The position numbers and the translations under genes were made by a program. The notes beneath the pieces were generated by a model. That model saw nothing but the letters and a program-made list of their open reading frames with translations. It was not told where the DNA came from and did no database searches. This document shows positions 4,210 to 23,600 of a stretch of DNA of 64,000 nucleotides, piece after piece; the first letter of the stretch is position 1, and every line of letters starts with the position of its first letter. The stretch is from the NCBI GenBank assembly GCA_937951625.1, contig CALFBP010000045.1:1-64000 (forward strand), read 5' to 3'. This stretch comes from an uncultured Thermoguttaceae bacterium. GTDB lineage: Bacteria; Planctomycetota; Planctomycetia; Pirellulales; Thermoguttaceae.

Positions 4210-5484
4210 ATGCGCGTCCGCCTGGAGTATGGCCGGTCAGGGTTGGAGGTCGCGCTGCCGGACCAGAACGTGGTCAAGTGCCTTGGTTATCGGGCAGCCG
4301 CGCCCCTTGCCTCCCCTGAACACGTGGTGCGCGAGCGACTTGCCCGGCCCTTAGGCACCCCGCCTTTGGCCGATTTGGCCCGAGGCCGCTCCAGCGCCTG
4401 CATCGCGATTTGCGACATCACGCGCCCCGTCCCCAATTCGATCCTGCTACCCCCCATTCTCGAAACCCTCGAGGCCGAAGGCATCCCGCGCGATCGCATC
4501 TTGATCCTTGTAGCCACGGGGATGCATCGGCCCAATCATCGTGACGAGCTCCGCGAGATGGTGGGCGAGGCAATTTTGGAACGGTATCGCATCGCCAACC
4601 ATCATGGGCGAGATCGCTCGGAACACGCCTTTCTCGGCACGAGTCCCCGGGGCGTACCGGTTTGGATCGACAATCGCTACCTCAGCGCTGAGCTGAAGAT
4701 CGCGGTTGGGCTGATCGAGCCGCACTTCATGGCCGGGTTTTCTGGTGGTCGAAAGGTGATCTGCCCGGGCCTGGCGGGGATCGAGACGGTCCGCGACTGG
4801 CACAGTCCGCGTTTTCTCGAGCACCCCAACGCCCGAACCGCCGTGCTCGAAGGCAATCCGGTTCATGAGGAGAACACGTGGATTGCCCGCCGCGCCGGCT
4901 GCGACTTCATCGTCAACGCGGTGATCGACGACCATCGTCGGATTTTGGCCGTGGTAGCCGGAGACATGGAAGCGGCTTTCGCGCAGGGGGTCGACTACGT
5001 GCGAGGCGTGGTGTCCGACACCGTGCCGGAGCCTGTCGACATCGTGGTGACCACCTCGGCCGGCTACCCCCTGGATGCCACCTTTTATCAGTCGGTCAAA
5101 GGCATGGTGGCCGCCGTGGATATTGTCAAGCCCGGCGGGACGATCATCCTTGCGGCGGGCCTGAGCGAGGGCATCGGCAGCCCGGAGTTCCAGAGCATCT
5201 TTCAAGAATATCCCTCCGCCGAGGCCTTCATGGACCGCCTGCTGCGCACCGATTATTTCAAGATGGATCAGTGGCAGGTGGAGGAATTGGCCCGCGTGCT
5301 TCGCAAGGCCCGGGTCGTGGTCGTCAGCGACGGCATTCCCTGCGATGTCCTCCAGCGCCACTATGTCGAGACCGCCCCGAGCGTCGAGGAGGCAGTGGCC
5401 GGTTGCTTGGCCCGATATGGCAACCACGCCACCATCGCCGTGATCCCCAAGGGACCTTACGTGGTCGCCAACGTAGCGGCGTAA
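4210..5484 (+). CDS. LarA-family nickel-pincer racemase/epimerase (DUF2088)
   Basis: LarA-type enzymes interconvert 2-hydroxyacid stereoisomers using a covalently held nickel pincer nucleotide. The 424-residue product has the N-terminal DUF2088 region ([31 protein letters not shown]) and the signature [13 protein letters not shown]. The residues matching the Lactobacillus plantarum set H108, H174, K184, H200 are H106, H172, K182 and H198 here, all with the same offset of two. The maturation genes larB, larC and larE are not in the window, so they would have to be elsewhere. Substrate is unknown; many LarA homologues do not act on lactate. ATG 4210 is chosen over an upstream TTG at 4195. Confidence 0.85.
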
Positions 5485-11288: not shown

Positions 11289-12834
<1,546 letters not shown>

Positions 12835-12842
<8 letters not shown>

Positions 12843-13863
12843 TGAGCTGGCTGAAATGTTTGCCCGGCCCGCGGCGACTTTCCGTCCCGCCGTCATGATC
12901 CGTTCCAGGGTCGCGGCAGGCACGGCGCGCGGTGAACCGAGACCGACAGCGGCCGCAACCTCCGCCCCTCCGCCCTTGGCCCCTGCGGCGGCGGATCGGC
13001 AAAGCCGCCCAACCTCGGAGGCCGACAGCACGGCGGAAAAGATCACTCCGATTTTTGAACCAAGGGCCGACCAACCCGGCCGTTCGGAACCGCCTCACGC
13101 TGTCCATGAGCCTGGTCCTACCGCCTCTCCCCACGCTGAGGCGGCTTCCCACGCCTCCCCTGCTCCGAACGATTACCAACTTCAAGCCGTAGGCTTGGCG
13201 AAAAGCTATCGCAAGGCGTCCGTCGTGATTCCGGTACTCCGCCACGTCGATTTGGGAGTTCGCCGCGGCGAATTCCTCGCCATCGTGGGCCAAAGCGGTT
13301 CAGGGAAGAGCACGCTGCTCCACTTGCTGGGCACTCTCGATGCCCCGGACGCTGGAAGTCTCTTTTTCGACGGCCAGCGGATCGACAATCTTCCCACCGC
13401 GGATCGCGACCGGCTCCGCAACCACTGTTTTGGCATGATCTTTCAGTTTTATCATCTCCTTCCCGAACTGACCACGCTGGAAAACGTGCTCACGCCGTTG
13501 ATGATCGGCAAAAGCGTGTGGCAATTTCTTCGCCGTCGTCGGGCCTATCGCCAGGCTGCGGAGCAGTTGCTTGAACTCGTGGGGTTGTCGCACCGCTTGA
13601 AGCACCGACCGAAGGAACTGTCGGGCGGGGAGATGCAACGGGCGGCGATTGCCCGGGCGTTGATCACTGGGCCCGACGTCTTGCTGGCCGACGAGCCCAC
13701 CGGAAACCTCGATCGGGCAACCGGCCAAGCGATTCTGGACCTTCTTTGCTCCTTGAATCGGCAGGAAAACCTGACTATAGTCATGGTGACTCACGATCTG
13801 GCCATTGCCGAACGAGCCAATCGCATGGTTCGCTTGGTGGATGGTCAGATCGAGGAATGTTGA
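12835..13863 (+). CDS. LolD-like ABC transporter ATP-binding protein with long N-terminal extension
   Basis: The ATPase partner of the upstream permease. The nucleotide-binding domain starts at about residue 113 and shows Walker A GQSGSGKST, the signature LSGGEMQRAAIARAL, Walker B LLADEPTGNLD and the switch histidine in VMVTHDLA. This is the LolD/MacB/FtsE type, usually 220-240 residues. Here 342 residues are predicted because of a Pro/Ala-rich, probably disordered N-terminal extension of ~112 residues. The ATG overlaps the end of the permease gene by 8 bases, and no better start is visible next to the core, so the extension is probably translated. Confidence 0.88.
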
Positions 13864-14130
13864 GAAGGTTCCGGCCGTCAGTCGCCCACTGGCAGCTATT
13901 TGTAGGTTGTCCAAAGAGTTAGGTCAGACCCCACGGGGAACGCGATCGAAGCGAATCCGCCGGAATCGGCAGGTCGGTTCCAGCGGTCAGCTAACGTCAA
14001 AAACCGCAAACAGCAATCCCCGCAGCCGTTCCCCTGCTCAGGCAGATAGCTGACATGGCAATCTGGAGGCCGTTGGTTGACCCGTGTGCCCTTAAATTTT
14101 CCCCTCCACCCCATCCCATCACGCGCTCCC

Positions 14131-14988
14131 ATGGCTCTGAAGGTCTACATCAACGGAAAACTCTACGACAAAGACGAAGCGAAGATCAGCGTCTATGACC
14201 ACGGTCTTTTGTATGGCGACGGGGTGTTCGAGGGGATTCGCAGCTACTCGGGCAAGGTGTTCCGGCTCCGCGAGCACCTCGACCGCTTATGGAACTCGGC
14301 CAAGGCCATTTGGTTGGAAATCCCCATGACCAAGGAGGAAATGGCCCAAGCGATTCACGACACGCTCTCGGCCAACGGCATCTTGGACGGCTACATCCGC
14401 GTGGTGGTGACGCGAGGCGTGGGCACCCTGGGTCTCGATCCTAACCGATGCAGCCAACCCCAGGTGATCATCATCACCGACCTCATCGCCCTGTATCCCG
14501 AGGATTACTACCGCAACGGGCTGGAGATCATCACCGTGAGCACGACGCGGAACCACCCCGCCGCGCTCAATCCCCGGATCAAGTCGCTCAACTACCTCAA
14601 CAACATTCTCGCCAAGATCGAGGGTCTTCAGGCGGGCTGCATCGAGGCCCTCATGCTCAATCACAAAGGCGAGGTGGCGGAGTGTACGGGCGACAACATT
14701 TTCGTCGTGCGTCAGGGCAGGATCGCCACCCCGCCCATCGACGCCGGGATCCTGGAAGGCATCACGCGCGATGCGGTCATCGGGCTGGCCCGCCAGTCGG
14801 GGATCGAGGTGGCGGAAATCCCCCTCACCCGACACGACGTCTATATTGCCGATGAGTGCTTCTTGACAGGCACCGCCGCCGAGGTCATTCCCGTCGTCAA
14901 GGTCGATAGCCGCACGATTGGGGACGGAAGGCCCGGCCCCATCACCCGCGACCTCATGCAACAATTCCACAAGCTCACGCGGAGTTAA
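14131..14988 (+). CDS. ilvE: Branched-chain amino acid aminotransferase (class IV PLP)
   Basis: Transfers amino groups between glutamate and the 2-keto acids of leucine, isoleucine and valine. The 285-residue product shows the class IV fold: VYDHGLLYGDGVFEGIRSY near the N-terminus, the PLP-binding lysine in RIKSLNYLNNILAKIEG (K151), and the phosphate-binding region EVAECTGDNIFVVR. The length is typical (about 285-310). D-amino acid aminotransferase and aminodeoxychorismate lyase share this fold, but the N-terminal motif and overall pattern favour IlvE. ATG 14131 aligns with the family start; an upstream TTG frame is ignored. The dedA-like gene starts 5 bases after the stop. Confidence 0.88.
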   Translation: MALKVYINGKLYDKDEAKISVYDHGLLYGDGVFEGIRSYSGKVFRLREHLDRLWNSAKAIWLEIPMTKEEMAQAIHDTLSANGILDGYIRVVVTRGVGTLGLDPNRCSQPQVIIITDLIALYPEDYYRNGLEIITVSTTRNHPAALNPRIKSLNYLNNILAKIEGLQAGCIEALMLNHKGEVAECTGDNIFVVRQGRIATPPIDAGILEGITRDAVIGLARQSGIEVAEIPLTRHDVYIADECFLTGTAAEVIPVVKVDSRTIGDGRPGPITRDLMQQFHKLTRS

Positions 14989-14993
14989 AGCTT

Positions 14994-15659
14994 GTGGATT
15001 GGATTCAATACGCTTTCGATCTGTTTTTGCACCTCGACAAGCACTTGGCCGAGGTGCTGCGCGACTATGGTACGTGGACGTACCTGATCCTGTTCACCAT
15101 CGTTTTTTGCGAGACGGGGCTAGTCGTCACGCCCTTCCTGCCTGGCGACTCGCTCCTTTTCGCAGCCGGGGCCTTGGCCGCCGTGGAGGGCCTCGGCGAG
15201 ACACTCGACCCGACCGTCCTCTTCGTCCTCCTTTCGGCCGCTGGCATCCTCGGCGACACGGTAAACTATTGGATCGGCGCCTACGTGGGGCCTCGGGCCT
15301 TCAGCGGCGACATCCGCTTCCTAAAAAAAGAGTATCTCGACCGCACCCATCAGTTCTACGAGAAGTACGGCGGCAAGACGATCATCATCGCCCGCTTTGT
15401 ACCGATCATCCGCACCTTTGCCCCGTTCGTGGCGGGCATTGGGGCGATGAATTACCGCCGCTTCATCATCTACAATGTGGTGGGCGCGATCTGTTGGGTA
15501 GGCCTGTTCGTTTACGGCGGCTACTATTTCGGCAACATGGAATTCGTCAAACGCCGCTTCTCGTTGGTGATCGTCGCCATCATCTTGATCTCGATCATGC
15601 CCATGGTGGTCGAGTTCCTTCGCGCAAGGCGCGGTAAAGAAGATTCCAAAGGCGGGTAA
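14994..15659 (+). CDS. DedA-family membrane protein
   Basis: A 221-residue polytopic inner-membrane protein of the DedA/SNARE-associated family, members of which act in membrane homeostasis and lipid-carrier flipping. The family signatures are visible: FCETGLVVTPFLPGDSLLFA with its re-entrant-loop Pro-Gly-Asp, and ARFVPIIRTFAPFVAGIGAM. There are about five hydrophobic segments and a basic C-terminus (RARRGKEDSKGG). The start is GTG, 5 bases after ilvE, so it probably depends on ilvE translation. Its exact lipid substrate cannot be deduced. Confidence 0.9.
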   Translation: MDWIQYAFDLFLHLDKHLAEVLRDYGTWTYLILFTIVFCETGLVVTPFLPGDSLLFAAGALAAVEGLGETLDPTVLFVLLSAAGILGDTVNYWIGAYVGPRAFSGDIRFLKKEYLDRTHQFYEKYGGKTIIIARFVPIIRTFAPFVAGIGAMNYRRFIIYNVVGAICWVGLFVYGGYYFGNMEFVKRRFSLVIVAIILISIMPMVVEFLRARRGKEDSKGG

Positions 15660-16098
15660 AAAAAGCTCGGTTGGGGAATTGGACGCTACCCCGGAACATG
15701 CGAAATCTGGGGTACATAACAAAATAGGGACAATGAGGACATTGTTTCGCCTTTCGCCTCACTCTTCATCTCCTCCCAGTGCGAGTCCTGCTGCTCGTCC
15801 GTCTGCTGATCGGGTAGTTGTGGCGCGGAAAGTTTCGAGGCAGAGCTTTTCGGTCTGCGATTTTCAGGCCGCCTAAGTGTCAAGCTGCTGGAAAAGCCCT
15901 CTGGCTCCAGTGTTGGTCGCCGTTTGCGATAGCCCGCTTTTCCCAATTGTATAAGATTAAATTGAACGTCTGATTGACGGGTAGCACCGATGGTGTTAAA
16001 ATCACCTCCGTCTTAGTGGGCAGTTTCATGTCCCCGGTTATTCGACGGAAGTGAAGCGGTCGGTCTCGGGAAATAGGAGTCCCGCCGGGTTCTAGAAG
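15660..16098. other. Intergenic region upstream of ispE
   Basis: About 440 bases with no supported gene. The right part is AT-richer than its surroundings and contains the ispE promoter at 15974-16002. The left part shows nothing recognisable. Confidence 0.6.
15974..16002 (+). promoter_or_regulatory. Sigma-70-type promoter for ispE
   Basis: TTGACG (15974-15979), 17-base spacer, TAAAAT (15997-16002), lying 97 bases before the ispE ATG. Confidence 0.6.
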
Positions 16099-17004
16099 AT
16101 GCACCTTCAGCAGTGCGGCGCCCAGGTCGTAGTTCACGCGCCGGCGAAGCTGAACTTGTTCTTCGAGGTGCTCGGCAAGCGTGAGGACGGATACCACGAC
16201 ATCGAGACGCTCGTCGTGCCAATCGCATGGTACGACACCCTGTACTTTGAGGGAGACGCGACGGGAAAGTTGAGTTTTCGCTGCGATCGGGTGTCGGGGC
16301 CTTGGGGTTCCGATCCGAAGTGGCTGGGCGACTTTCCAGAAGGCGATCAGAACTTGGTGGTCCGGGCCGTGGATTTGCTTTGCCGCCGAAGTGGTGTGCG
16401 GCGTGGCGGCCGGATTCGGCTGGTGAAGCGGATTCCCACGGCGGCCGGCCTCGGAGGAGGCTCGAGCGACGCTGCGGCCGCCCTGGCGGCGGCCAACGCC
16501 AGTTGGGCTCTGGGGTGGTCGTGGCAAGAGTTGGCGCAACTAGGGGCTGAACTGGGGAGCGACGTGCCGCTATTCTTCGCCAAAGGTCCGGCGATCTGCC
16601 GCGGCCGGGGAGAACGCGTGACCCCGCTTGCCGCACGGGGACCCTTGCATTTCGTCCTGGTGCGACCTCCGGCGGGCCTGGCCACGGCCGAAGTTTACCG
16701 CGCCTGCCGCCCGCCCGAGCTACCTGTCAGTCTCCAGCCGCTGCTTGACGCCTTCGAGCGTGGGCGGTTGGACGAGCTGGGAGGGCGACTCTTCAATCGC
16801 TTGGAGCCAGCCGCCCAAACCCTTTCGCCGTGGATTCGTCGCCTTCGGGAGGAGTTTCAACAGACCGATTGCGTCGGAAGCCAAATGAGCGGCAGCGGAA
16901 CATGTTACTTTGGGGTTTGCCGTCACGCGCGTCATGCCCGGCGCGTCGCGCGTCGCCTGCTAGCTCGCGGAATAGGAGTTGTCTTGGCCGTCCGAGGATG
17001 CTGA
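16099..17004 (+). CDS. ispE: 4-diphosphocytidyl-2-C-methyl-D-erythritol kinase
   Basis: IspE phosphorylates CDP-methylerythritol in the non-mevalonate isoprenoid pathway, which supplies the precursors for squalene and hopanoids made by genes elsewhere in this window. The 301-residue GHMP kinase has the N-terminal APAKLNLFFEVLGKREDGYHD motif and the ATP-binding loop PTAAGLGGGSSDAAAAL (residues 113-129). The C-terminal MSGSGTCYFGV motif is also present. Length is typical. The downstream spoVG-like gene begins 18 bases after the stop, recalling the association of ispE with spoVG in other bacteria. Confidence 0.95.
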   Translation: MHLQQCGAQVVVHAPAKLNLFFEVLGKREDGYHDIETLVVPIAWYDTLYFEGDATGKLSFRCDRVSGPWGSDPKWLGDFPEGDQNLVVRAVDLLCRRSGVRRGGRIRLVKRIPTAAGLGGGSSDAAAALAAANASWALGWSWQELAQLGAELGSDVPLFFAKGPAICRGRGERVTPLAARGPLHFVLVRPPAGLATAEVYRACRPPELPVSLQPLLDAFERGRLDELGGRLFNRLEPAAQTLSPWIRRLREEFQQTDCVGSQMSGSGTCYFGVCRHARHARRVARRLLARGIGVVLAVRGC

Positions 17005-17022
17005 AATGCAAGGAGAACCGCC

Positions 17023-17598
17023 GTGGAAATCACCGAAGTCCGCATCAAGCTTATGGAGGAGCCCGGCGAACGCCTGAAGGCCTTCTGTTCGATCACCTTC
17101 GACAACGCCTTTGTCATTCGCGACTTGAAGATCATCGAGGGAGCCAACGGTCTGTTCGTGGCAATGCCCAGCCGCAAACTGACCGCCCATTGCCCCAATT
17201 GTCATAGCAAGAATCACCTCCGCGCGGCATACTGTAACCAATGCGGGGTGCGACTCAAGGAGGGGTCGGCGCTTCGCGACAACGACGGCCGGGCACGGTT
17301 GTATGCCGATATCGCTCATCCCATCCATTCCGCGTGTCGGGAAGCAATCCAGGCCCGTGTACTCGAGGCCTACGAGCAGGAAAAAGCACGTGCCAAGCTG
17401 CCGGGCTATGTGCCGAGCTACGACGATTTCGACGAGGACGGGGCCGTAGCAGAAATCCGCGAGGAGAGCCCTCCTTCGGTGGCCCCGGCCCGCGTCCAGC
17501 CCCCAGAAAAGCCCCGTGGTCCGCATCGGCCCCCCGCCCAGCATTCCCAGAGAATCGCTTCGGAGAATAACGAGTTCGGGGCCGGCATCTTCGACTGA
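17023..17598 (+). CDS. spoVG: SpoVG-family protein with an inserted zinc ribbon
   Basis: SpoVG proteins are small RNA/DNA-binding regulators. Residues 1-52 (MEITEVRIKLMEEPGERLKA onward, including NGLFVAMPSRK) and 95-120 (ADIAHPIHSACREAIQ, then ARVLEAYEQE) match the SpoVG core. Between them, at the usual loop position, lies a Cys4 zinc ribbon: C57-x2-C60 and C71-x2-C74, from CPNC to CNQCGVRL. The C-terminal ~70 residues are acidic then Pro-rich and look disordered. Ordinary SpoVG proteins are about 85-100 residues; this one is 191. The GTG start has AAGGAG at good spacing. It is probably co-transcribed with ispE. Confidence 0.85.
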   Translation: MEITEVRIKLMEEPGERLKAFCSITFDNAFVIRDLKIIEGANGLFVAMPSRKLTAHCPNCHSKNHLRAAYCNQCGVRLKEGSALRDNDGRARLYADIAHPIHSACREAIQARVLEAYEQEKARAKLPGYVPSYDDFDEDGAVAEIREESPPSVAPARVQPPEKPRGPHRPPAQHSQRIASENNEFGAGIFD

Positions 17599-17635
17599 AC
17601 CACGTCGCGGATTCCAGCACGGGAAACAACCGCGA

Positions 17636-18526
17636 TCAAGGTGACTTGTCCCCGAACAACGTCACCCGGTATCGCAGCTCCAAGGGTTTGCCCGGCGTTA
17701 ACGTCACAGGCTGAAGCCCGGGGTACGAGACGTTCAAACAGCAGAGCTGATGCCGCATGAGCCAGCCGTTTCGCGGGTAGCCGGGGTTCGACGGTTGGTC
17801 CTCTATCCGAGCCCCAGCCGGCCGCCCCTGGTACGTCCCAGAAAGCTCCGCCCAGGCATGACGCGCCATGACGCCATCCTTTCGGGCAACGCCCTCTTCG
17901 GTGACGATGACTGGTTTTCCGCCATCGGGCCGGGCGAACTTGAAGCAGAAACCGCTGAAGCCCTTCTTGCCTTCGGACGTGCCTGCGATCTCCACAGGCT
18001 GGCGGATCGCCTCCCAACGCAGCGTGAACTCGAGCACTCGGCGTCCACCCTCGGCTCGGTGCGTAACAATCTCCACGTCTTCCTTCACGAACTTTCGGTC
18101 GCCGTCGAACCAGCCGTTTTCAACGGCAAGCCGGGCCGTCGTGTCGGTCGTTTCTCGGGCCTTCCAGGCGACGAATCGGTTTTGAAACGGCCCTTTGACC
18201 GTCCACATGTCCCCCTTCTTGCCATCCACCGTGACGTCGGTCCACGCCCAGAAGATGCCGCGATGGTGCGGATGGTCGGGATTGAAGTCGTCGGTCAGCG
18301 TCACCCCATTCGGCGCATAGACCGGATGGAGATACGACGATCGCCGCATCGATTCGGGAAAGCCCTTGCCTAAAATCATGCCGAAGTTGTAAACGAAAAC
18401 TGGCGATCCGCCTTCTGAAAGCTCCAGCCCCGTGGACGACACCTCCCGAAAGACGAACGCGCCGCGGGATTCGGCCCCAGGCAAAACGAGCGAGGCAACC
18501 AACAAGACCAAAGTCGAGTTCATCAT
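17636..18526 (-). CDS. Secreted DUF6807 (PF14100) protein
   Basis: The 296-residue product has a signal peptide (about residues 1-20) and the DUF6807 fold, a beta-sandwich formerly labelled PmoA in databases without relation to methane monooxygenase. The family hallmark DHPHHRGIFWAWTDV is at about residues 85-100, and the region GFCFKFARPDGGKPVI is also typical. These proteins are abundant in planctomycetes, often near glycoside hydrolases and oxidoreductases, and are thought to act on extracellular carbohydrates. The reaction is not known. It converges with the spoVG-like gene. Confidence 0.8.
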   Translation of the reverse strand: MMNSTLVLLVASLVLPGAESRGAFVFREVSSTGLELSEGGSPVFVYNFGMILGKGFPESMRRSSYLHPVYAPNGVTLTDDFNPDHPHHRGIFWAWTDVTVDGKKGDMWTVKGPFQNRFVAWKARETTDTTARLAVENGWFDGDRKFVKEDVEIVTHRAEGGRRVLEFTLRWEAIRQPVEIAGTSEGKKGFSGFCFKFARPDGGKPVIVTEEGVARKDGVMARHAWAELSGTYQGRPAGARIEDQPSNPGYPRNGWLMRHQLCCLNVSYPGLQPVTLTPGKPLELRYRVTLFGDKSP

Positions 18527-18931
18527 TCGTTCCTGGATGCAAGTTCACTTGAAGGAATCATGGGTTGGCCTTTCCCGTGCCCGTCCCCTTCGGAGACACC
18601 GAACAGGAGTCGAACGACGCGCCTTCACGCGGTCGGCCAACGCCCCGGGCTTCGAAAGGCTCGTCCTCCGATGAAACCTTCGTCATTCTGGCCAGCTTTC
18701 GCGAGCAATTCAAGAAACAGGTGAAGCAAAGCGGCCACCGCCAGGCTCTTGCCACCGAACCCGGCGAATGCGAAAATAACAATCCCTGAAAGGCAGGTTC
18801 TTGTTGAATCGCCAAATTTCGGGCCATAAGCTGGAACAAGAGTAGGCGATTGTTCACGGAGATCGGTCTTCGTATGTGAACGCCTACTGAAAACGAAAGA
18901 ATAGATAGCATTCGCAGCCAACTTACCGGAA
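18527..18931. other. Intergenic region between DUF6807 gene and tRNA-Leu
   Basis: About 400 bases. A short open frame (18565-18789, plus) has no family resemblance or clear ribosome site and is not called. Nothing else recognised. Confidence 0.5.
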
Positions 18932-19014
18932 GCCGGAGTGGCGGAATGGCAGACGCGCTGGACTCAAAATCCAGTGGGCTTCGGCCCATGAGGGTTCAAG
19001 TCCCTCCTCCGGTA
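18932..19014 (+). tRNA. tRNA-Leu (anticodon CAA)
   Basis: Class II tRNA. The acceptor 5' strand GCCGGAG (18932-18938) pairs with CTCCGGT (19007-19013), including one G-U pair, and the discriminator is A19014. The anticodon stem CTGGA/TCCAG encloses loop CTCAAAA, giving anticodon CAA (reads UUG). There is a long variable arm (GTGGGCTTCGGCCCAT) and a T arm GAGGG-TTCAAGT-CCCTC. CCA is not encoded. It borders an integrase remnant, consistent with use as an integration site. Confidence 0.95.
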
Positions 19015-19016
19015 CT

Positions 19017-19847
19017 TTAGCAACCCATTTGTGGAAAAGGACTTGCGGCCAGATGGCTGCAAGTCCTTTTTTGCTTGCATTTACCAACTTCCACAACACT
19101 TCCACAACTTTTCTCTCGGGTGACTCGGGACGTTGCGCAATCAGCCATCATTTGGAGCATCACCTTTCGGCTCATCATCCTCCAGCCGCACCGTCCGGGT
19201 GTTGGCGGCAGCCTTAGGGCAGGCTTGGTGTTGACGTAGTAATTCTCCATGGTTGCAACAGTGGCACGGCCGAGGACGCCCTTTACGACGATCGTCGGAA
19301 CTTTCGCCGCGATCAACTCCGAGGCACAGCTTGACCGGCAGTTCTTGGGAACATAGTGCTCCCCATCCTTGATGCCAGCCGCCTTCTGGATCGCATGCCA
19401 GTCCTCGTAGATATGGTAGGCGTCGCAAGGCCAGGGGAACACCGGGTCGCTTCCCTTGGCATCCGGCTGTCTCTCCCGCCATTGTCGCACCACAATGCCA
19501 ATTTCGGGTGGTATGCCAATAACCCTGTCCTTCCTCGACTTTGAGCTTGAAGCCACGACGTGGACTTCCAGCGTATCCAGGGAGACTCGATCCCAGGTGA
19601 GGCCAAGAATCTCGCCCTGGCGGAGGCCCAGGTAGTAGGCGACGTACAAGAAGACCCGCCACCATTCGGCCGGCCTGTACTTGAGGACCAACTGCGGATT
19701 CCTGAGTGCCTTCACCATCTCCATGAAGTCCTCTTCAGGAATGATGACGGGCTGCTTCCGATCTTCCCGGATGAAGACACCCTTGAAGTCCGGCACCTCG
19801 GAGATATAGCCTCTTCGTTTGGCCCACCGAAGGGCTGCCTTAACATG
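19017..19847 (-). pseudogene. Tyrosine recombinase (phage-type integrase), N-terminus lost
   Basis: The C-terminal catalytic domain of a site-specific tyrosine recombinase, about 276 codons. Visible residues: Arg in YLGLRQGEILGL, Lys in SSKSRKDRVIGI, the second Arg in NCRSSCASEL, and the C-terminal tyrosine in TMENYYVNT. The usual first His of HxxR and the His of LGH are replaced (KNCR, LGRAT), so activity is doubtful. The N-terminal DNA-binding domain is missing: before AALRWAKRRGYI the DNA becomes an IS1380-type transposase remnant in another frame. The reading frame ends next to tRNA-Leu, the typical place of an integrase in a tRNA-borne island. Its last ~20 codons overlap a terminator and may not be original. 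Confidence 0.75.
19035..19072. terminator. Strong terminator after tRNA-Leu (potentially bidirectional)
   Basis: AAAAGGACTTGCGGCC and GGCTGCAAGTCCTTTTTT form a long stem with one mismatch around AGAT, starting 20 bases after the tRNA. Flanking A and T runs allow termination on either strand. It lies inside the last codons of the minus-strand integrase frame. Confidence 0.8.
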
Positions 19848-19849
19848 CC

Positions 19850-20523
19850 GACGGCCTGGTTGAACTCTCCCAGCCGATCCTCGAACGTGCCGCGACGCCG
19901 ATAGTGTTCCAAGCACGCCGGGCCATCCATTTCTTCCTCCCGCCAGCCCGCCACCAGAAAGAAATAGTCCGGCTCCAAAAACAACTGCCCCGTCTTCGGA
20001 TCGGGCGGATCGAGGATGACCAACAGCACCCGTTGCGGGAACTCCCACGACTTGGCCTGATAGAATCCCAGTTCCACAACCGTCTCGTATCCTCCCTTCG
20101 GAGGCCGACCCGGCGGGCGTCGGATGTGCGGCTCCTATGATAATGGCCGTGGTAGGCGGCCCCCGCTTGATCGCCAAAGACTTCCAATGGAAAACTGTCG
20201 ATGTCGATCGTCGCCCGCCGCACCGCGTGATCGCTGCGGGTCCGCAGGTGCCGCGGGACCCAGTCTCCCGGCGCCCGCCGCACCACCTCCAGATTGTTCC
20301 CCACGTGCGCCACGATATCCAACAGCCGCGACTGCGTGGGCTGGCTCGCCAGCCGTTCCCCCAACACCCGCCGGCACGGACGATCCCAGGTCGCCATCCG
20401 CAACGCCGGATCATGGGCCAAGCGATCGAGATCGTCTTGGGCCCGATAGCCCAGTGCCAACCCATAGATCCGCTCCCGCAACAACTCCGAGATCCGATAG
20501 CGGATCAAGTCCTGGTTCCTCAT
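19850..20523 (-). mobile_element. IS1380-family transposase remnant
   Basis: Two pieces of a DDE transposase in different frames. The first (from ATG 20523) reads LIRYRISELLRERIYGLALG and continues to ATIDIDSFPLEVFGDQ and AAYHGHYH, the typical IS1380 segment around the first catalytic Asp. After about 20140 the frame changes and the later part continues as GGYETVVELGFYQAKSWEFP, then EHYRRRGTFEDRLGEFNQ, the C-terminal hallmark of the family. Most of the middle of a ~450-residue transposase is missing, so it is inactive. It joins directly to the integrase remnant at about 19850, as if the insertion destroyed the integrase N-terminus. Terminal inverted repeats were not identified. Confidence 0.75.
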
Positions 20524-20633
20524 GATTCCGGGAGGGTTTCGGCGTGCCTTTCGCGTGGATTGATTTGAGGCGACAATGGAAACTGCGTTGAGCTGAAAAC
20601 CGAGGACACGACCGCGCGAAAGGAAGGTGTGCG

Positions 20634-23600
20634 ATGACGAAGCTGCTGTGGCCAGTGCTGATGAGCGTGGCGGTCTTTTGGTTGGCCTTCAGCCTGGTCG
20701 AGGCGGCGGCCCCGGTCCCACGTTGCGAGCCGTGGGAAAGCGAATACTCGGGCCAGGACGCCACCGGCGAGCACGTCATCGCCTTGTGGCAGTTCACCTC
20801 CGGCAAGGAGACCGAGGATTCGTCGGGCCACGGACACATGCTGAAGTTTGAGGGCGTGCAGCCCAATCCAAACGGTCGTTTTGGCGGGTGTCTGGAGTCG
20901 TTCCGCGGCTGGCCGGTGGAGGACAAGCGGCACGCGGCCCTCGCGAAAAACCATCCGGCGCTCAGTCCTCAAGGGGCCTTTACATTGGAAATGTGGATCC
21001 AGCCTGGGCCGGAACTCGATGCCCACTACCCTTCGGCCTTCTTGCTCGACAAGAAGTACGTCGCGCATGACGATTACCAGCTCCTCCTCGGCGCCCCGGA
21101 CAAACAAGGCGCCCGAGTAATTCAGGCGGTGCTCGGGTTTGGCGACAGTTCGTCGAGCTTCCATTCCAAGCCGGTGAAGTTCGATCCGGGCCGATGGTAT
21201 CACGTGGCCATGACCTACGACGGGGCGGGGACCGTGAGTTTCTTCGTCAACGGCAATCCCTGGGGCTCCAGCCGCGCGAGCGGCCGCGGATCCATCAGTC
21301 CCGGCAAGCACGTGCTCTCGATTGGCGACCGTGTGGGCAGCCTTTATCACGGATTTCCCGGTCGGATCGACCAGGTCCGCATTTCCCGCGGCGCGCTGGA
21401 GTTTCAACGGCTCAAGGTGGTTCTGCTCTCCGATCGCACCTGCTTTGTACGCATGGAAAAAAACGTGGCACCCCGGCTGCAACTCCAGAATTTGCAACAG
21501 GAGGCAATCGCGGAGGGCGTGGTGACCATGTCGCTGGGGAATCGCGCGGTGAAACAGGCGAAGATCGCGGACCTGGCGGCGGGGGCGACGATGGACTTGG
21601 ACTATCCCGTGGACAGTAGCCTCCGGCCGGACTTGTATTCCTTGAAGATCGAGGTGAAAACTAGCCGTCCCCGGGCGATCGGCGTCGAGCAGTCGTTTCC
21701 TTTGCGGATTGTGCCGCGGCAGCCGCCGCAGTTTCCCGTCGTCATGTGGGGGATCTATGATCCGACGGGCTTGATGAAAGAAATAGATCGACTCCAAGCG
21801 ATCGGCTTCACGCACGTGCTCGGCGTGGGGGCAGACTACGAGGCGATTTGGAAGGCCGGTAAACCGACTCAAGCCACCACGCCCCAGCGCGAGGCTGAGA
21901 CGCGGCAGATGCTCGACGCGGCCCTCGCCCGGGGGCTGTCGATCGCCGCCAGCCTTTCGCCCGGCTCGGCCATGGAGGGCAAGCCGGAGTTGCATCGCGT
22001 CAACCGCAAGGGAGAGCCGCAGAAGAAGAACGGCATCTGTGGGCTGCTGCCGGCAATGGAGGCCTATTGCTTCAACGTGGGGGCCTCGGTGGCGAAGAGC
22101 TATGGGGAATTTCCCGCCTTCCAGGCGGCGCTGGTCCATACGGAGGTTCGCGACGCGGCCCAGCCGTGCTTCCACAAAGAGGACATCGAGGCGTTTCGGC
22201 AGGCAACGGGAATCGACGTTCCTGCCGAAATCGTCAGCAAATGGGGCGTCGACTGGCGAAAACTGAAGGACTTTCCCGTCTCGCGGGTCGTGCCCGACGA
22301 CCATCCGATCTACCGCTATTATCACTGGTATTGGAAGTCGGGCGATGGTTGGAACGGCTTGAATACGGCGGTGGTGCGGGGGCTGAAATCCACGGGCCGG
22401 AAAGACCTCTGGACTTGGCATGACCCGGCCGTGCGCGTGGCCAGCGTCTATGGCAGCGGCGGCGAGGTGGACGTGGTCTCGCAATGGACCTACTCCTATC
22501 CCGATCCCATCCGCATCGCCGTGGCGACCGACGAGTTGTTGGCGATGGCCGCCGGCGCAGGTCGGAAGCAAGAGGTGATGAAGATGACGCAGATCATCTG
22601 GTACCGCAGCCAGACCGCGCCGGAACCCAAGCCCGACGCTCCTCGACCGGCGTTCCAAGCCCCGTGGGAACTGGAGCAGCCCGACGCCCCCTTCATCACC
22701 ATTGCTCCCATGCACCTGCGCGAGGCCTTCTGGACCAAGATCGCCCGACCGATCCGCGGCATCATGTACCACGGCTGGCAATCGCTGGTGCCTTGCGACG
22801 AGCTTGGGAGCTATCGCTACACACACCCCGAGACGCAACACGAACTGGCTCGGCTCACGCGACGCGTGATTCAGCCCCTGGGTCCGACGTTGTTGAACGT
22901 GCCAGGCGCAAAAAGCGATGTGGCCTTCCTGGAGAGTTTTGCATCACAGGTATTCGCCTCGCGCGGCACTTATGGCTGGGGCGGCAAGTGGCTGGGCGAT
23001 GCGTACCACGTGATGCTCTATGCCGGGCTCCAGCCGGAGATCGTCTTCGACGAGACCATCGTCCAACGCGGGCTGGAAGGCTTTCGCGTCCTCGTCATGT
23101 GCGATTGCGACGTAATCACGGAAAAGATGCTCGAGCGGATCAAGGCCTTCCAGTCTGCGGGAGGGATTGTGGTTGGGGACGAGCGCATTTGCCCCGCGAT
23201 CCGGCCCGACATCCGCCTCCAGCCCTATCAGCGGACCGGCCGGGCCGATCAGGACAAAGCGGCTTTGGTCGCCCTGGCCGCCGAGCTGCGCAAACAGCTC
23301 GATAATCGCTATGCGCGGCCGCTCGATTCCAGCGATGCTGAAGTGATTCCTTATCGCCGCCAGTATCAGGCAGCCGACTATGTGTTCGTGGTCAACGATC
23401 GGCGGGAGTACGGCCACTACGTGGGCCAGCACGGCTTGGTGATGGAAAATGGGCTGCCATCGGATGCCACCCTTTCGCTCCGCACGCCAAGCGAGGCGAT
23501 CTATGACTTAGTCGAGGGCCGACCCATCCGGGGGCGGCGGGAGGGCGATCGGCTACTTTGGGACGTGCATCTTGGCCCTTGCGACGGCGGTTTGTTCCTC

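Follow-up and report, generated by a model that had tools for sequence, protein, structure and literature searches.

A predicted zinc ribbon inserted in the core of SpoVG in Planctomycetota and Omnitrophota, with copies on viral contigs

What is a four-cysteine segment doing in the core of a SpoVG protein? The question is raised by a gene at positions 17023..17598 of the window (the whole 64,000-nucleotide stretch analysed here, from an uncultured Thermoguttaceae bacterium), which encodes 191 amino acids on the + strand, as do all the features of this gene given below. Its GTG start codon is supported by homologues opening with M-[ED]-I-T-E-V, and a ribosome-binding site, AAGGAG, can be read directly 7 nt 5' of it (17010..17015, +). 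The initial annotation had described a SpoVG core split by a Cys4 insertion, and the family and structure comparisons bear this out. Pfam SpoVG (PF04026) matches residues 1–119 (E 4.4e-29; 100.9 bits, cut-off 29.6; model positions 1–82), and canonical SpoVG structures align with residues 1–52 and about 94–120, with a gap between. The first part of the core (17023..17178, residues 1–52) ends in the basic pair R51-K52 (17173-17178), which aligns with the K-R of 2I9Z. The inserted segment follows (17179..17262, residues 53–80) and splits the core with the pattern C57-x2-C60-x10-C71-x2-C74, beginning four residues after the Arg-Lys pair; the reading frame and the four cysteines are where that annotation had placed them (Cys57 17191-17193, Cys60 17200-17202, Cys71 17233-17235 and Cys74 17242-17244). 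A variable linker (17263..17304, residues 81–94) leads back to the second part of the core (17305..17394, residues 95–124), containing the ADIAHPI motif and the C-terminal helix (103–124). The protein shares core sequence, fold, basic pair, HPI motif and C-terminal helix with the SpoVG structures from B. subtilis (2IA9) and S. epidermidis (2I9X and 2I9Z), but its loop is about 35 residues longer and holds the Cys4 ribbon, and it has a long tail with a distinctive tip. The NCBIfam equivalog for septation regulator SpoVG (NF009749) matches in two stretches and scores 94.7, below its cut-off of 108. There is one clear SpoVG in the window genome, a second match being under the cut-off (E 0.56). 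We regard it as all but certain that the window protein is a genuine SpoVG carrying an inserted Cys4 ribbon.

The position of the gene after ispE is shared with spoVG loci elsewhere, as the initial annotation had suggested. In Bacillus, ispE, spoVG, glmU, prs and rplY lie in one stretch. In the window, ispE (16099..17004, +; TIGR00154, 179.6 bits against a cut-off of 138.7) ends 18 bp upstream of spoVG and the two are probably in one operon. Across 129 loci an ispE homologue was found in 108, and it lies directly upstream on the same strand in 105/105 loci where both genes were kept by our procedure. A promoter-like site with an extended -10 (TTGACG-17-TAAAAT; 15974..16002, +) precedes ispE; it is weak, a single site found against 0.5 expected by chance. 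Downstream of spoVG there is a convergent DUF6807 gene, and a search of 15600-18700 gave no terminator-like site. One contig (JABMRB010000358.1, L037) bears the title Candidatus Nealsonbacteria, probably by mislabelling, and carries a SpoVG that is 62% identical to that of the window and likewise adjoins ispE.

The initial annotation had left it to structure prediction whether both a SpoVG fold and a ribbon form. An AlphaFold2 model of the window protein (61 aligned sequences; mean pLDDT 77.2, pTM 0.55) has ten-residue pLDDT means of 81–93 over residues 1–80, falling below 50 at residues 92–100, on the way back into the core. The strand order is the same in a second model, made for the short Omnitrophota form L094 (mean pLDDT 73.9), with values of 76–82 for the ribbon blocks and below 50 for residues 83–101. 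Thus, in models from two phyla, the SpoVG fold and a RanBP2/eL40-like ribbon are both predicted to form. The placement of the modelled ribbon against the core is not fixed by these single-chain predictions, in which pLDDT is below 50 at the return of the chain. For both models, Foldseek ranks 1–10 are SpoVG chains. In the VIA comparison with the window model, SpoVG chains score Z 10.7–11.9 and finger rows Z 2.7–3.5, the latter low, as expected for about 30 residues. By Foldseek, the ribbon superposes on archaeal eL40 (9znf) with an rmsd of 1.0 over 25 columns, and on RanBP2/NZF fingers with an rmsd of at best 0.8–1.2 over 25–27 columns, others being worse; the E-values of these matches are high (0.6–5) because the ribbon is so short.

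Assigning the ribbon to a family is less straightforward. The window ribbon barely reaches the cut-off of the double zinc ribbon model PF12773 (DZR; 27.4 against 27.3 bits), the best stretch covering 24 of its 45 positions and so one ribbon of the double model. PF00641 (Zn_ribbon_RanBP) is absent from the Pfam matches of the window protein at E 1 or better. Among the 61 aligned relatives, a set drawn partly with ribbon peptides, DZR matches 54 and PF00641 matches 18 at E 0.01 or better (best PF00641 value, 9.9e-6); the generic DZR profile fits better than the RanBP one. The consensus for RanBP2-type fingers, C-x2-4-C-x3-N-x6-C in the passages available from PMC6384913, is followed in its spacing and its Asn (N64 in 199/200 of the planctomycete genes described below), but the Trp expected two residues before the first Cys is Ala55 in the window, and we do not count the ribbon as a member. 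What it has in common with these fingers (PF00641; ZRANB2, NZF) is the arrangement C-x2-C-x3-N-x6-C-x2-C and the fold, with a best rmsd of about 1 over 26 columns; unlike them, it lacks the Trp before the first Cys, usually has His at the stacking-aromatic position and keeps no more than one of the two RNA-binding Arg. With the eL40 zinc ribbon it shares C-x2-C-x3-N-x-[IL]-R-A-x2-C-x2-C-G as well as the fold, although the sequence match (E 0.086) is not significant alone and eL40, unlike SpoVG, is a ribosomal protein of archaea and eukaryotes. A ribbon-only profile run against PDB sequences returned mostly short CNQCG matches (best E 0.016) and was uninformative. Taken from the models and the cysteine pattern, the insert is probably a Cys4 zinc ribbon.

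We then turn to how general the insert is. A SpoVG-family search gave matches in 172 of 294 Planctomycetota genomes and in 34 of 40 near relatives, 31 of them new, making 203 genomes. The DNA of at least one match was read in each of the 203, some further weak matches being left out (among them the second ones in G012 and G062). A core profile kept 211 gene rows from 202 genomes, with a weak G173 match and the weak loci L350, L354 and L356 falling below it. This search for SpoVG made no use of the ribbon, so the census is free of probe circularity. The insert is present in 203 of the 211 rows, from 199 genomes, and 200 of these 203 genes have exactly C-x2-C-x10-C-x2-C starting four residues past the basic pair. 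The three exceptions are L116 (first Cys replaced by Phe, leaving three Cys), L232 (C-x-C) and L343 (C-x4-C). Of the other eight rows, three are pieces of broken orthologues showing part of the ribbon or its flank (two from one G325 gene, where a contig ends inside the ribbon after three Cys, and one from G084, whose reading frame breaks within the ribbon). The remaining five are short, divergent SpoVG-like genes (L349, L351, L352, L355 and L357), which stand beside an insert-bearing gene in the same genome, except in G096. Among the rows read, the only full-length planctomycete genes that lack the insert are these divergent ones. The presence of the insertion throughout the planctomycete orthologues read and the conservation of its cysteines, which the initial annotation had named among the points to be checked, are both upheld. 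Neither of the tests that it had set as refutations, of ribbon formation in the models and of Cys conservation in homologues, refuted the insertion. Chance or a local oddity is ruled out as the source of the insert by the exact spacing in 200/203 genes, and a sequencing or frame artefact of the window genome by an equivalent insert being open in 203. Four genomes hold two ribbon SpoVG genes each: G023 (L319/L328), G058 (L133/L353), G110 (L203/L264) and G141 (L259/L292). An earlier mixed set had the pattern in 126/128 relatives, L048 and L116 each lacking one Cys; L102, counted among them, is no SpoVG, and the invariance of this set is partly circular, with two ribbon peptides among the probes.

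Several residues besides the cysteines are held in place. Among the 200 exact genes, K63 is kept in 198, G75 in 199, N72 in 177 and R67 in 153; position 68 is Ala or Ser in 200, position 70 is Phe, Tyr or His in 198 and position 65 is His in 146. From C57 to G75 the mean net charge is +2.3, with values of +1 or more in 195 of the 203 insert-bearing genes. The linker that follows drifts, whereas hardly any change is seen at the four Cys, K63, N64 or G75. It is this contrast that makes it highly improbable that the insert is a neutral ancestral insertion, a lineage marker without a function of its own, to which the single genes with the first Cys lost, with C-x-C and with C-x4-C would otherwise lend themselves.

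The insert has been seen before as just such a marker. Gupta and colleagues (2012) described a signature indel of 32–36 amino acids in all planctomycete SpoVGs detected, 'specific for Planctomycetes' (PMC3444138). This is the same insert; the passages of that paper dealing with it present it as a marker for phylogeny, with no mention of a zinc ribbon or of a function. Its presence in all planctomycete orthologues agrees with our census, where 203 genes bear the insert and the other rows are broken or divergent. Its absence outside the phylum does not hold: a scan of genome contigs brought up ribbon SpoVGs from Omnitrophota (L094, L096-L101), and among 145 Omnitrophota genomes searched, with 115 giving a SpoVG match, 95 have one of insert length (339–393 nt). 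A high-scoring short SpoVG (243–279 nt) was found in eight, other genomes having weaker matches only. The Cys4 spacing is exact in 29/29 Omnitrophota genomes whose insert-bearing gene was read; N64 is not universal there, being Ile in L196 and Val in L197. Many Omnitrophota also hold a separate short, divergent SpoVG. Those of L240, L249, L251, L253 and L257, commonly beside the ribbon form, are without the DIAHP motif, as are the occasional five from Planctomycetota listed above. In the phylum to which a Nitrospirae MAG belongs, a match was obtained for 32 of the 148 genomes. Full-length matches number 31, each of 240–246 nt and so with no insert, and the other is a fragment; this absence is borne out in the 20 sequences read. 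Phylum names for the Omnitrophota and Nitrospirae sets are those of the record titles. In the open-access literature we found nothing on SpoVG in Omnitrophota, and a search for SpoVG with a zinc ribbon gave a match that, by its title, is about tcaA. New here are the probable zinc-ribbon identity of the insert, its occurrence in a second phylum, its probable loss in one branch, its absence from the Nitrospirae phylum sample and its copies on viral contigs. The published marker is thereby corrected, in that the insert is not specific to Planctomycetes, and is given a probable nature.

The history of the insert was approached with a tree of 116 core sequences from which the insert had been cut out (79 columns), in which many forks are left open. 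Its 35 planctomycete rows are the window and 34 taken at random, and the viral rows L410, L417, L419 and L422 were left off, since their cores could not be cut by pattern. Eight ribbon-less Omnitrophota orthologues (L169-L172, L180, L182, L187 and L190) nest inside the ribbon-bearing Omnitrophota (branches 99/94 and 97/86), and are therefore read as a loss. In AU tests, a single clade of every ribbon row had p = 0.25, against 0.45 when the ribbon-less Omnitrophota were added; for ribbon Omnitrophota p was 0.375. We call the loss in one Omnitrophota branch probable because the alternative is left unrejected (p 0.25), and such a loss would count in favour of a neutral insertion. The ribbon may have been inserted into the SpoVG loop anciently and perhaps once, the AU values of 0.25–0.45 neither showing nor rejecting a single origin. 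Seven of the ribbon-less Omnitrophota read FVVMPSRK; L180 and most ribbon forms read FVAMPSRK or FIAMPSRK. The loop of the ribbon-less L254 is 11 residues longer than in other short forms, that of L180 is also longer, and these are perhaps remnants of the ribbon. Gene order in ribbon-bearing Omnitrophota is transketolase halves, ispE, spoVG, glmU, prs, rplY and pth, as far as the loci reach. In five ribbon-less loci with wide flanks (L242, L243, L244, L254 and L255) ispE also lies directly before spoVG; glmU, which directly follows spoVG in the ribbon forms, comes after two other genes, then prs where the locus reaches it (3/5). With ispE before and glmU after, the ribbon-less forms therefore occupy a common locus with the ribbon forms.

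Ribbon SpoVGs are also found on viral contigs. A scan of IMG/VR with the alignment of relatives gave 21 loci, eight with the ribbon and 13 ordinary. Seven of the eight are distinct, as L383 and L384 share one SpoVG sequence and nearly identical flanks. Scanning again with the phage forms brought up no additional ribbon contig, the further loci being ribbon-less. Three contigs carry phage hallmarks upstream of the gene. In L381 (spoVG at 5001-5414) these are a head maturation protease (1.4e-40) and a T4-type Gp23 major capsid gene (6.8e-79), the end of the latter being separated from spoVG by 1.5 kb and two ORFs; in L382 (3144-3557) the same capsid gene (3.5e-83) is found in the corresponding place; and L386 (5001-5402) has a terminase large subunit gene (1.8e-59) 1.4 kb upstream. 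The contigs L379 (1917-2372), L380 (5001-5459), L383 (5001-5459) and L385 (5001-5408) had no firm phage hallmark among the few genes tested, and are viral by IMG/VR calling. No ispE was detected in the flanks covered for 45 viral loci (L379-L423), with 7/7 control loci positive.

The four cysteines are kept in 7/7 phage forms, which again argues against a neutral insertion, and R67 is Ile or Gln in 3/7. Three phage forms tested against NF009749 scored 95.6, 77.4 and 97.9, all under the cut-off of 108. TIGR02996, a model whose name points to Gemmata obscuriglobus, exceeds its cut-off in a gene of L383 and in a gene of L386; these matches fit planctomycete hosts for the phage contigs, and are no proof of them. 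On the tree, six of the seven phage forms fall in the mainly planctomycete half, several on long branches. Their scatter needs five changes, of which well-supported branches force just one, and repeated capture of ribbon SpoVG by phages is likely, not firm. Among plasmid and annotated-phage collections, 11 and 13 records respectively are of ordinary length (231–258 nt) or shorter, none with the insert. Ordinary SpoVG genes on human-gut phages are already known, and are discussed as sporulation genes in the passages available from PMC10294663; the two cases have carriage by phages in common, and it is the ordinary viral loci in our set that are without the ribbon.

What might the ribbon do? In the parts of PMC3688583 that bear on this, SpoVG of S. 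aureus and of B. burgdorferi cannot do without the equivalent basic pair for DNA binding, and a section of the helix beyond the insert site contributes to sequence specificity. Listeria SpoVG is described as binding RNAs, and DNA weakly and with no specificity (PMC4959528, in part), and some RanBP2 proteins as contacting RNA through the finger (PMC6384913, likewise). The ribbon is inserted in the loop that joins the Arg-Lys pair, which contacts nucleic acid, to the specificity helix. In the mechanism that we propose, each protomer of the SpoVG dimer would carry a positively charged ribbon beside the binding groove. The eL40 zinc finger touches RNA. The ribbon could then make a second contact to one nucleic acid. 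Single-stranded RNA is a likelier ligand here than duplex DNA, and the contact might raise the affinity or narrow the targets of a post-transcriptional regulator. We favour a second contact because a basic finger of an RNA-touching type lies between the two binding elements, and because K63 and N64 are conserved besides the cysteines in a basic ribbon. Phage copies without ispE in their flanks are as expected of a self-sufficient regulator.

Other features speak against an RNA contact. By our own matching of the ribbon to the RanBP2 RNA-contact positions, Ala or Ser takes the place of the second RNA-contacting Arg in 200/200 genes, and the stacking-aromatic position, 65, is usually His. R67 is replaced in 47/200, N64 is not kept in L196 and L197, and one Omnitrophota branch appears to do without the ribbon altogether. 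RanBP2-type fingers also bind proteins (Ran, ubiquitin), and such fingers are among the closest structural matches, equally near in fold. Because the RanBP2 Trp is absent, the aromatic is His, one Arg of the pair is present and protein-binding fingers are equally near, we put the chance that the ribbon gives SpoVG a second contact to nucleic acid, probably RNA, beside the Arg-Lys pair at about even.

The same structural matches give some weight to a different reading, in which the ribbon is a protein-docking module tethering SpoVG to a partner such as RNA polymerase, the ribosome or an RNase and the core alone binds nucleic acid. Many of the nearest matches are NZF/RanBP fingers that bind Ran or ubiquitin, and the best family match is the generic DZR. 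The ribbon is nevertheless basic and its placement beside the nucleic-acid-contacting pair is constant (200/203 with the exact pattern), and we think docking a possible but doubtful role. That a Cys4 site of such exact spacing (200/203) lies in the loop joining two binding elements could also point to a stabiliser or a zinc/redox switch, locking the loop and dimer and tuning binding on zinc loss or oxidation. A mere clamp would have no need of K63, N64 or basic charge, and the core is intact in relatives that lack the ribbon, both in the Nitrospirae phylum and in one Omnitrophota branch; this role seems rather improbable.

A second candidate docking element exists at the C-terminus, which bears on the docking reading in its turn. 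The proline-rich tail (17395..17574, residues 125–184) precedes a tip, FGAGIFD (17575..17595, residues 185–191), that does not feature in the initial annotation. The tail had been called disordered and acidic. AlphaFold2 predicts no structure over residues 125–191 except one short helix (134–137); the acidity of the tail is only mild, at 9 K+R against 12 D+E over residues 121–191, and is concentrated in a patch at 133–150 (8 D+E against 1 K+R). Tail length differs among relatives. The end is conserved over a portion of the phylum, the pattern F-[GSA]-x-G-[IVLM]-[FLWYVI] closing 45/51 complete genes in the class of the window and 33/147 in other classes, and a slightly different tip pattern gives 77/198 overall. 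The six in-class misses include the near relative G167. In the form F-[GSA]-x-G-[IVL]-[FL], the tip also ends many other planctomycete SpoVGs, L007, L015 and L030 among them. Docking peptides are commonly recognised by conservation at the very end of a disordered tail that otherwise varies, and for this reason we read FGAGIFD as probably being one. We asked whether the tip might end other proteins of the window genome, and a strict pattern (F-G-x-G-[codon NTN]-F-[codon GAN]-stop) matched spoVG alone. The tip is absent from the aligned Omnitrophota and phage forms, which have the ribbon without the tip, a point against docking as the role of the ribbon. To return to the second-contact mechanism, the disordered tail in planctomycetes might present this peptide and recruit a partner protein to the bound RNA, a weaker part of the proposal.

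More broadly, and only tentatively, ribbon-SpoVG may be a distinct class of bacterial RNA-binding global regulator in which the groove and a RanBP2/eL40-like finger read one RNA. It would be the default SpoVG of Planctomycetota and most Omnitrophota, captured, perhaps several times, by tailed planctomycete phages as a means of redirecting the RNA of the host; in one phage lineage it would do so from a place next to the cluster of head genes. Gene regulation in these two phyla is little known, and a phylum-wide zinc module on a global nucleic-acid regulator offers a testable handle: one gene, four cysteines, natural ribbon-less relatives as controls and phage versions for comparison.

An Rfam search of window positions 12000-22000 at gathering scores returned a single tRNA and nothing else. 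A tRNA next to a tyrosine recombinase is the usual mark of the end of an integrated element; here the tRNA gene (18932-19014, +) adjoins an ORF (19017-20465, -) that by eye is tyrosine recombinase-like.
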